A stretch of 64,000 nucleotides of DNA. It comes from Candidatus Thiodictyon syntrophicum. GTDB lineage: Bacteria > Pseudomonadota > Gammaproteobacteria > Chromatiales > Chromatiaceae. Below are positions 29,264-62,103 of this stretch, one piece after another. The DNA is taken from assembly GCF_002813775.1 (NCBI RefSeq), contig NZ_CP020370.1:682001-746000 (forward strand), written 5' to 3'. A program made the translations under genes and the position numbers. Within the stretch, counting starts at the first letter, position 1. Each line of letters begins with the position of its first letter. The notes below the pieces were generated by a model. That model was not told where the DNA came from and did not search any database. It saw nothing but the letters and a program-made list of their open reading frames with translations.

Positions 29264-29282
29264 CGTAAATCGGGGACGTACC

Positions 29283-30627
29283 CTGAGGTATCCCCACGAA
29301 AACAGCCATAAAAACAGCGGCCTAGAATTCATTTTCAGTTTCGGTGTGCGTGCATGAGGGTTTGTTGCCACACTGTTAGGAAGGCAAAGCCCACAGGAGG
29401 CCCCTCATGCACGCGTCGATATTGTTGCACTCTTGGCTCGGTCAGTGGCTGTCATGTATCCACTTAAAACGCTTGGTATCGCTCTTCGACATGGTGGCCG
29501 CCTGCGTTGCCGGCACGGGTTTATCCATCACCTCGGTGGGACGGCGCCTGCCAGGCCCGACGTCCTTGAAACACAAGATCAAGCGTGCCGACCGCGTGAT
29601 CGGCAATCCTCACCTGTATCGCGAGCGCACGGCGATCTACGGCGCCCTGTCCCGGGTGACCCTGGCCCGGATTCCCGAACCGCTGATTCTCATCGACTGG
29701 TCGCCTATCAAGGTCGATCAATCCTTTCAACTGTTGCGCGCGTCGATCGCGGTCGGCGGTCACGCCTTGACCCTCTACGAGGAAATTCATCCCACCTGCG
29801 ACCTCGGCAACCCCAAGGTCCAAGAGCGTTTTCTCCACACCGTGGCGGGCTTGTTGCCGCCTGGTGCCGCACCCATCATCATCGCCGATGCCGGCTTTAA
29901 GGTGCCTTTTTTCCGTGCCGTCGAGGCCCTTGGCTGGCGCTGGGTCGGACGCCTGCGGGGGCGCGACTATGTGCGCCTGAACGCCGATTGGATTAGTGGC
30001 AAGTCGTTGTTTACGAAAGCAACAACAAAACCCGTTCGGCTCGGCATCGGCGACTGGGTGAGAAGCAACCCATTGCCCGTCGTCATGGTCTTGGTCCGTC
30101 TGCCCAAGTGCGGTCGTCATGATAAGACAGCATCCGGGCGCATCGCACGCTCGCGCAAAAGTCGCAAGGCCGCCCGCAGTCAGCGTGAGCCGTGGCTGCT
30201 CATGGCGACGCGCCGTTTGGGGCATTTGGCAGCGAAGGCGATCGTGCGCATCTATCGCCAGCGCATGCAGATAGAAGAAGGCTTCCGCGACATGAAGAAC
30301 CTGTACTTTGGTCAGGGCTACGAGGCCAACCGTTCACACGACCTCAAGCGCCTTTCCATTCTCGTTATGATTGCCGCACTGGCGGCTTTCCTACTCTTTA
30401 TGATCGGTGCGACGGCGGAGCGATTGAACCTCCAGCGCGGTATGCATGCGAGCAGTTCCAAGCGCCGCGTCTATTCCCTGTCGTTTCTTGCCTCGCTCAT
30501 TCTGAATATCACGAAAGTGGAGATCGCTCTATCCGAGTTCCTAGCGCCGGAAGAGCAGGTGGCCCAATTCCATCAGGCGCTATTGTTGGGTGAATAAACG
30601 GAGGCGAAATTCGTGGGGATACCTCAG
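29283..30627 (+). mobile_element. IS4-family insertion sequence
   Basis: 1345 bases with perfect 18-base inverted ends (CTGAGGTATCCCCACGAA at 29283 and its complement ending 30627) and a 9-base target duplication GGACGTACC (29274-29282 and 30628-30636), as for IS10-like IS4 members. It lies in the non-coding end of duplicate copy 1 and leaves vapC untouched. Confidence 0.9.
29407..30597 (+). CDS. IS4-family DDE transposase
   Basis: 396 residues. Catalytic residues are D in LILIDWSPIK, D in IIIADAGFK and E in the YREK signature YRQRMQIEEGFRDMK (Y-x2-R-x3-E-x6-K). The gene appears intact and lies between the inverted ends, so the element may still be active. Confidence 0.9.
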   Translation: MHASILLHSWLGQWLSCIHLKRLVSLFDMVAACVAGTGLSITSVGRRLPGPTSLKHKIKRADRVIGNPHLYRERTAIYGALSRVTLARIPEPLILIDWSPIKVDQSFQLLRASIAVGGHALTLYEEIHPTCDLGNPKVQERFLHTVAGLLPPGAAPIIIADAGFKVPFFRAVEALGWRWVGRLRGRDYVRLNADWISGKSLFTKATTKPVRLGIGDWVRSNPLPVVMVLVRLPKCGRHDKTASGRIARSRKSRKAARSQREPWLLMATRRLGHLAAKAIVRIYRQRMQIEEGFRDMKNLYFGQGYEANRSHDLKRLSILVMIAALAAFLLFMIGATAERLNLQRGMHASSSKRRVYSLSFLASLILNITKVEIALSEFLAPEEQVAQFHQALLLGE

Positions 30628-60400: not shown

Positions 60401-62103
60401 ACCGGCTGGTTGACCTCCAGACGCCAGTGCTTGCCGGCCTCGTTGATGCCCAGGAGGTTGGGCCGCGGGCCGATCAGCGACACCAGCGACATGACCAGTT
60501 CCTCGCGGATCGGGTCGATCGGCGGGTTGGTCACCTGGGCGAAGTTCTGCTGGAAATAGCTCGACAGGTGCTTGGCGCGGCGCGACAGGACCGAGGGCGG
60601 GTTGTCCGCACCCATGGAGCCGACCGCCTCCTGGCCCGTCACCACCATCGGGGTGAGCAGGAACTTGATGTCCTCCTGGGTATAGCCGAAGGCCTGCTGG
60701 GCATTGAGCAGGGTGTCGGCGTCCGGGGCCATGGGGGCGACGTTGGTCGGCAGGTCGTCCAGGTGGATCTGGGTCCGGTTGAGCCACTCGCGATAGGGGT
60801 GGGCGCCGGCCAGCGCCGCCTTGATCTCGGCGTCGTCGATGATGCGGCCCTGCTCCAGGTCGATCAGGAGCATCTTGCCGGGCTGCAGCCGCCACTTCTT
60901 GACGATGCGCGACTCTTCGATGTCGAGCACGCCCATCTCGGAGGCCATGATCACGAGATCGTCATTGGTGACCAGGTAGCGGGCCGGGCGCAGGCCGTTG
61001 CGGTCCAGCGTGGCGCCGATCTGGCGGCCGTCGGTGAAGGCGACGGCGGCGGGGCCGTCCCAGGGCTCCATCAGGCCCGCGTGATACTCGTAGAAGGCGC
61101 GCCGCTTGGTGTCCATCTGCTTGTTGCCGGCCCAGGCCTCGGGGATCAGCAGCATCATGGCGTGGGCCAGGCTGTAGCCGCCCATCACCAGCAGTTCCAG
61201 TGCGTTGTCGAAACTGGCGGAGTCCGACTGGCCCTCGGGGATCAGCGGCCAGATGCTGTCCAGATCATCGCCCAGGACCTCCGAGCGCATGGTGTGGCGG
61301 CGCGCCGCCATCCAGTTGAGATTGCCGCGCAGGGTGTTGATCTCCCCGTTGTGGCAGATCATCCGGAAGGGGTGGGCGAGATCCCAGGTCGGGAAGGTGT
61401 TGGTGGAGAAGCGCTGGTGCACCAGGGCCAGGGCCGAGGCGACGCGCTCGTCCTGCAGGTCCAGATAATAGGAACCCACCTGGTCGGCGAGCAGCATCCC
61501 CTTGTAGGTGATGGTGCGCGCGGACATGGAGGTCACGTAGAAGGCGGTCTTGTCGAAGCCGGCCGCGCGGATCTCGTTGTCCATACGCTTGCGGATCACG
61601 AACAGCTTGCGCTCGAAGGACTGCGCGTCCGGGCAGTTGTCGCCGCGGGCGATGAAGACCTGGCGGACCACGGGCTCGGTCGGCAGCACGCTCTTGCCGA
61701 GCACGGTGTTGTCCATCGGCACGTCGCGCCAGCCGAGCACCCGCTGCCCGCCCTCGGTCAGGCGCCGCTCCACCGTTGCCTGGGTCTGCTCCCGCGCCGC
61801 CGGGTCCTGGGGCAGGAAGACCATGCCCACGCCGTAGGTCCCGGCGGGCGGCAGTTCAAAGTCCAACTCCGCCCGGAAGAAGGCGTCCGGGACCTGGAGC
61901 AGGATGCCGGCCCCGTCACCGGCCCGCGGGTCGGCACCCACGGCGCCGCGATGGGTCAGGCGTTGCAACAGTTCCAGACCCTGCCGGACGATGGCGTGGC
62001 TTTGCTGATTCTTGATATGGCAGACGAAGCCGACGCCGCAGGCGTCATGCTCGTTGGCTGGGTTATAGAGACCCTGTGCGGGCGGAAGGGCACGCAGGCT
62101 CAT
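57436..62103 (-). CDS. gltB: Glutamate synthase [NADPH] large subunit
   Basis: 1555 residues. ATG 62103 ([11 protein letters not shown]) has the ribosome site GAGGT and places the catalytic N-terminal cysteine at C22 (HDACGVGF) after a short propeptide, as in GltB. Class II amidotransferase, central, FMN/synthase ([15 protein letters not shown]), 3Fe-4S ([15 protein letters not shown]) and GXGXG beta-helix domains follow in order. It releases ammonia from glutamine and channels it to 2-oxoglutarate. A sigma-54-like promoter lies about 250 bases upstream, fitting nitrogen control. Long antisense open frames over it are shadows. Confidence 0.97.

Follow-up and report, generated by a model that had tools for sequence, protein, structure and literature searches.

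Recombination-driven hotspots and the gltBD locus

The minimal mobile elements of Neisseria are cassettes without mobility genes of their own that are exchanged by means of homology in the flanking core genes, one cassette replacing another between two single-copy genes; they are not known to form a nested array. At the gltBD locus of Candidatus Thiodictyon syntrophicum Cad16, the tyrosine-recombinase matches listed include none on the contigs of the array, an IS4 transposase borders copy 1, and the blocks, unlike the Neisseria elements, are accompanied by nested pieces of the core genes. The passages of Oliveira et al. 2017 (PMC5635113) that deal with hotspots without mobile elements describe these as diversifying by double recombination at the flanking core genes. 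The gltBD locus resembles the hotspots of those passages in its variable cargo at a fixed core gene, in the signs of recombination in that core gene and in having no tyrosine recombinase on the contigs of the array among the matches listed, but the flanks described there are single-copy, whereas here the core gene itself is duplicated and the blocks stand side by side. The core defence hotspots of Pseudomonas aeruginosa, as described in sections of PMC10250203, lie by tRNA or tmRNA genes and accept diverse mobile elements. They share with the gltBD locus the presence of varied anti-phage systems at one core locus, toxin genes and, as proposed there, recombination in the flanks; nested copies of the core gene, which the gltBD array has, do not appear in those sections. 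What is new here with respect to the known recombination-driven hotspots is that a core operon is duplicated in nested pieces and that blocks accumulate side by side. We found no array bounded by gltBD described in the titles or abstracts of the open-licence literature.

Organization of the gltBD copies and their cargo

The window, meaning the whole stretch of 64,000 nucleotides that was analyzed (C1:682001-746000), belongs to a genome of 7,738,984 bases in three contigs. Reading from right to left on the minus strand, it contains gltB, gltD and vapBC (copy 3), a first cargo region (cargo B), gltD behind a third of gltB (copy 2), a second cargo region (cargo A) and gltD with vapBC behind a piece of gltB (copy 1), followed by an IS4 transposase. 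The core genes and their copies are the following:

57436..62103, minus strand: intact gltB, 4668 bp, 1555 aa, with a GXGXG domain match
55977..57443, minus strand: gltD of copy 3, behind the intact gltB, open reading frame
55589..55861, minus strand: vapB on the copy-3 side, named from its position before vapC
55182..55592, minus strand: vapC (PIN) on the copy-3 side; Pfam PIN 6.3e-15, NCBIfam VapC models below their cut-offs
43120..44748, minus strand: copy 2, 3' third of gltB, 1629 bp of the 4668-bp gene
41661..43127, minus strand: gltD of copy 2, intact reading frame
32933..33755, minus strand: copy 1, piece of the GXGXG region of gltB that lacks 270 bp internally, at about 32977-32986
31474..32940, minus strand: gltD of copy 1, intact reading frame
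31092..31364, minus strand: vapB on the copy-1 side
30685..31095, minus strand: vapC on the copy-1 side, duplicate of 55182-55592
46725..46794, minus strand: fourth gltB scrap, about 70 bp, 85% identical to 60989-61061
29407..30597, plus strand: IS4-family transposase (NCBIfam NF033591 3e-82; PF01609), adjoining position 30624, where the copy-1 repeat ends

In a comparison of the window with itself, copy 1 matched copy 3 in two parts (30624-32986 with 55121-57489 at 95.3-95.4% identity, and 32977-33755 with 57759-58537 at 97.7%) and copy 2 matched copy 3 over 41609-44748 and 55922-59064 at 99.1%; the length and identity of these repeats exclude chance matches. This agrees with the original prediction, which had described three gltD copies in one orientation behind differing lengths of gltB, one of these being a fragment of the beta-helix domain and another about a third of the gene. 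The lengths of gltB before gltD are about 0.8 kb in copy 1, where the GXGXG match was found, 1.6 kb in copy 2 and the whole gene in copy 3, and all three gltD reading frames are open over 489 codons including the stop. The vapBC pair stands behind copies 1 and 3 and is absent behind copy 2. The earlier inventory of gltB pieces was incomplete, having missed the fourth scrap, which sits in cargo B next to the start of a toxin-antitoxin module. Elsewhere in the genome there is a single other GXGXG match, which is weaker and lies on contig C3. Left of the array, in reading direction, comes gltB, with aroB-like sequence conserved further up. Two side observations were made in the window: at 29982-30054, inside the transposase ORF, ARAGORN reports a tRNA-??? 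whose anticodon has four bases, most likely a false positive, and a 130-bp repeat of 87-88% identity lies outside the array at 176-307 and 9637-9768. Parts of this repeat recur in two related genomes (G006 contig C326, L024, and G002 contig C127, L117), so it is probably a dispersed element.

Between the copies lie the following genes and joints:

33907..34914, plus strand: IetA, cargo A (PADLOC 4.4e-73)
34939..37449, plus strand: IetS, a subtilase, cargo A (PADLOC 8.3e-38; PF00082 2.1e-58)
37618..40036, minus strand: AtcA-, AtcB- and AtcC-like genes, cargo A (NCBIfam 2.4e-7, 2.3e-23 and 5.6e-4, each below the cut-off)
40129..40398, minus strand: J-domain protein, cargo A, AtcJ-like by context (PF00226 1.8e-20)
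40441..41130, minus strand: 229-aa protein, cargo A; a relative at 73% (DNA) adjoins a gltD piece in G005
41144..41389, minus strand: 81-aa ORF without a Pfam family, cargo A
45003-46040 and 46041-46622, plus strand: two ORFs with no family above the cut-off, cargo B
46965..47948, plus strand: Rpn/YhgA-like protein, cargo B (PF04754 2e-50)
48329..54343, minus strand: run of small ORFs, cargo B, exported proteins by eye alone
46793..46890, plus strand: toxin-antitoxin remnant at joint J3, promoter and antitoxin start of AF2212-like/DUF104 type, the family being taken from the intact relative L025
33755..33756, no strand: joint J1, where the gltB piece meets the IetAS flank; the same joint is found in G006
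44748..44790, no strand: joint J2, fusion of the gltB piece with a PIN-toxin remnant, with ATCCA common to both partners

The original prediction had also held that each space carries distinct cargo, and this stands: the self-comparison found gltBD and vapBC repeated between blocks and no other cargo. Its names for IetAS, the J-domain protein and Rpn are matched by the PADLOC, PF00226 and PF04754 models, respectively. The label transpeptidase-like is not supported, the gene having no Pfam family and a single NCBIfam match, which is to an unrelated model and below the cut-off. The small-ORF run of cargo B contains a 119-bp repeat of 76% identity (49316-49434 and 52905-53023).

Reliability of the assembly and the sibling genome

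Repeats of 3.1 kb at 99% identity could mislead a short-read assembler, which speaks for an assembly artefact. According to sections of the genome report (PMC5944118), the Cad16T sequence is based on PacBio coverage of 200x, obtained from fragments longer than 10 kb, with Illumina data used for correction, and the published lengths are 6,837,296, 484,824 and 416,864. The same junctions are present in an independent draft genome of a sibling, G006. Its contigs C852 and C507, which share an identical overlap of 130 bases, contain cargo A between the end of the copy-2 gltD and J1 at 94-97% identity to Cad16, and J2 is found on contig C243. Long-read sequencing together with shared junctions makes an assembly error hardly conceivable. 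At least four different left ends of gltB occur in the sibling, namely the intact one (C326), J2 (C243), J1 (C507) and a joint at gltB position 59035 (C232), which adjoins a complete toxin-antitoxin module; the cargo of this extra unit (C232, 3.3 kb; L025:1-3300) is absent from Cad16 save three matches of 150 bp or less. On these contigs, the gltBD copy number differs between Cad16 and G006. A rearranged G006 contig, C192 (L115), joins the toxin-antitoxin start, pieces of cargo B, a vapB piece and a match to window positions 22373-24264, so that the variable region may extend left of the array in window coordinates.

Distribution in the genus and in other genomes

The original prediction had suggested comparing gltBD neighborhoods of related genomes. 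Extra gltB or gltD pieces were found behind gltD in six of eight genomes of the genus (G000, which is Cad16, G001, G002, G005, G006 and G007), with variable cargo. Counted here are pieces that lie at the gltBD locus itself or on a contig with its cargo. As for the other two genomes, G003 is uninformative for extra pieces, its contig ending 365 bp behind gltD, and G004, with a single gltBD, shows no extra piece on its contig within 9.6 kb behind gltD; a toxin-antitoxin remnant and defence genes are present there despite this. All pieces have the same orientation on every contig with several. In G001, short matches resembling gltB or gltD ends also occur away from its gltBD contig (C24:8098-8160 and C205:2668-2726).

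Outside the genus we relied on DNA self-searches, since a protein-level search misses short DNA scraps; at the protein level the 94 control loci gave special cases only, a distant second gltB (L038) and a split gltB (L054). No extra piece was found in 14 of 15 neighborhoods from other genera with at least 3.7 kb behind gltD, and the remaining one had a 30-bp inverted match; L129 (236 bp) and L135 (1 bp) were left out of this set, and L022, L027 and L030, which belong to the genus, were too short behind gltD to be counted in this search. Among the 94 control loci, which come from named genomes, 14 (L006-L019) with 41 bp or less behind gltD are uninformative, and 60 of the 80 that are left have at least 4 kb behind gltD; extra pieces were found in none of these 60. 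The sole positive outside them was L041, with a 52-bp match and just 1.4 kb behind gltD. Class-wide, a GXGXG match was obtained in 138 of 185 genomes (E 1e-10). More than one match was seen in Cad16 and seven others, where the cases are a distant second gltB, a broken second gltB (G107) and an apparent split at a contig end (G188), and several near-identical copies were found in none of the 137 other class genomes with a match. This distribution, with cargo that differs among the genomes of the genus, supports the repeated-event reading put forward in the original prediction. Five genomes of other genera have a common neighbor behind gltD; hemE, presumably the neighbor of gltD in other genera, was rejected as the right border, lying far away in Cad16 at C1:3038443.

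Different accessory genes lie at the same core gene across related genomes, and anti-phage systems are found at the site in most genomes of the genus: PADLOC gave defence matches in G000, G001, G002, G004, G005 and G007, and IetAS is also present in G006 by DNA match. The matches are JetA in G002, JetC and JetD in G007, dCTPase- and TIR-type models in G004, a GmrSD-like PDC-M55C protein between two gltD pieces in G005 and, in G001, HEC-01A on an incomplete ORF that has gltD on one side and a gltD scrap on the other. The Jet matches of G002 and G007 are predicted to represent Wadjet, and the dCTPase-type match of G004 is dCTP deaminase-like. Further genes of G002 are one for a GmrSD_N protein and a pair of UPF0175/DUF3368 type, in which UPF0175 was assigned through the relative in G007. 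By DNA search, an AF2212-like/PIN toxin-antitoxin module is present in six of the eight genomes, always on contigs with gltBD pieces or cargo of the locus except for one 63-bp match in Cad16. The start of this module adjoins a gltB piece in seven places (one in Cad16, two in G002, three in G006 and one in G007), and the gltB points at these joints differ (about 61063, 60655 and 59035). At J2, G006 passes from 67 bp of the PIN gene through ATCCA into gltB, and Cad16 has lost part of this toxin remnant.

Conversion, mosaicism and decay of the copies

When copies 2 and 3 are compared in bins of 100 bp, 28 bins in a row (about 56.12-58.92 kb) are free of mismatches, against 20 mismatches in the first two bins and five in the last two; an identical core of at least 2.8 kb between diverged ends shows recent gene conversion, the ends having retained older differences. 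Copy 1 is a mosaic relative to copy 3: codon 244 divides its gltD into a part that differs by 4.5% at third positions and a part that differs by 18.8%, a split equaled in none of 2000 permutations. The two GltD proteins differ in three amino acids, against 59 silent differences in the genes.

The truncated gltB pieces differ almost solely at silent sites. The copy 1 piece has 16 silent and no replacing differences from the intact gltB over 765 ungapped bases; a wider alignment adds two codons, one at the alignment edge beyond the piece and the other, at 57450, among the final codons of gltB, where the difference may be real. In G006, the C243 piece has 28 silent and no replacing differences from the gltB of its own genome (231 codons), and 29 silent and one replacing from Cad16, and the C232 piece has 16 silent differences, with all three replacing ones in two codons at the joint. 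Random change in this stretch of gltB would be 76% replacing, or 67% with transitions alone, and the probability of finding no replacing change is about 1.6e-4 for Cad16 copy 1 and 2e-7 for G006 C243 by our own arithmetic, which uses the transitions figure and places half of the changes on the dead copy. The truncated pieces therefore did not diverge in place as dead sequence. From this pattern they appear to carry alleles of working genes brought in by recombination between lineages, and selection is a less likely cause.

Decay is also visible. Copy 1 has lost about 270 bp inside gltB, with TGGGTTG at both edges of the deletion, and in G002 and G007 only mini-remnants are left, fusions of about 160 bp of gltB with the final 41 bp of gltD, some of them with stops. 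A GGGGACAGTATAC-like motif, presumably of the kind found in elements near IS200-type transposases, follows the mini-remnants in G002 (L020:9520-9680) and in G007 (L021:13998-14150).

Origin of the array

Our analysis suggests that in this genus the stretch behind gltD is probably a hotspot for defence and toxin-antitoxin genes that is built and reshuffled by homologous recombination through gltBD. Incoming DNA with part of gltB, gltD and some cargo would recombine with the resident gltBD, so that the resident would retain an intact gltBD on the left, in reading direction, and the arriving truncated gltB would mark the joint further right; the copies would then swap sequence by gene conversion and the older ones would decay through deletions at short repeats. 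The incoming DNA presumably comes from congeners, as a linear fragment or a circle. The observations behind this reading are the nested copies on one strand, the joints shared with the sibling, the genome-specific cargo, the conversion between copies 2 and 3, the mosaic copy 1, the silent-only divergence of the truncated gltB and the deletion scars. Against it stand the vapBC pair behind both copy 1 and copy 3, which duplication in place would also yield, and G004 with its single gltBD; in addition, the same toxin-antitoxin edge meeting several gltB points is poorly accounted for by plain recombination. No intermediate, such as a circle, an incoming fragment or a pair of strains with and without one block, was seen among the genomes compared. 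Nor did we find, as a possible carrier, a near relative of this gltBD on plasmids among the best 10 of 114 records (cover 74-84%, identity 68.9-73.1%), in phages (8 records, 60-80% identity) or on viral contigs (2 loci, 47-50% protein identity).

The main rival is that segments beginning within gltB and ending within the cargo were duplicated in tandem where they stood, after which the copies lost different cargo and underwent gene conversion. The shared orientation of the pieces and the two vapBC pairs fit this as well, and the joints between toxin-antitoxin genes and gltB resemble duplication joints, J2 having 5 bp of shared sequence. We nevertheless judge it unlikely: no cargo is repeated between the blocks, the truncated gltB pieces, with no or almost no replacing changes, have not diverged as dead copies would, and the C243 piece of G006 is as far from its own gltB as from that of Cad16. 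The unrepeated cargo bears in the same way on the proposal in the original prediction that the locus is amplifiable by homologous recombination, since it leaves amplification in the strict sense unsupported; the part concerning recombination is supported by the conversion between copies 2 and 3, and the copy number differs in the sibling.

That the extra pieces are retained for a function, for example gltD dosage or a free GXGXG domain, would account for the three open gltD frames, the few amino-acid changes between copies 1 and 3 and the almost purely silent changes in gltB, but it is improbable, as the copies in G002 and G007 decay freely with large internal deletions and stops and copy 1 lacks 270 bp inside gltB. 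GltD alone is not known to make glutamate synthase, which also counts against retention. Still more improbable is that islands integrated site-specifically into the gltD 3' end, regenerating it each time, for which one can point to G001 and G002, where an insert separates gltD from another gltD 3' end ahead of vapBC. Among the matches listed (26 of 28 for Cad16), no tyrosine recombinase (PF00589), the type that the search covered, lies on contigs of the array, and the repeats vary in length between about 36 bp and 3.1 kb, with differing gltB ends that reach far into the gene; no constant repeat size is thus apparent, and the integrase-type integration at gltD that could be read into the original prediction is disfavored.

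Within the preferred explanation, recombination through gltBD, it is conceivable but doubtful that units of truncated gltB, gltD, cargo and toxin-antitoxin genes are integrase-free mobile cassettes that move as circles and use gltBD as a universal docking site. Recombination between neighboring copies would free a circle, a single exchange in its own gltBD would let it enter any congener, and the toxin-antitoxin module at the unit border would favor its retention. The seven toxin-antitoxin joints in four genomes and the working-gene alleles in truncated pieces fit such a cycle.

Implications

The gltBD array bears on an open question, the integrase-free movement of defence genes from one bacterium to another. 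Every block that arrived seems to have left a trace that can still be read, a truncated copy of the core gene with silent differences that record a working allele, so that the order, source and decay of the arrivals become testable in one locus. By such a simple route any conserved operon might gather defence genes.
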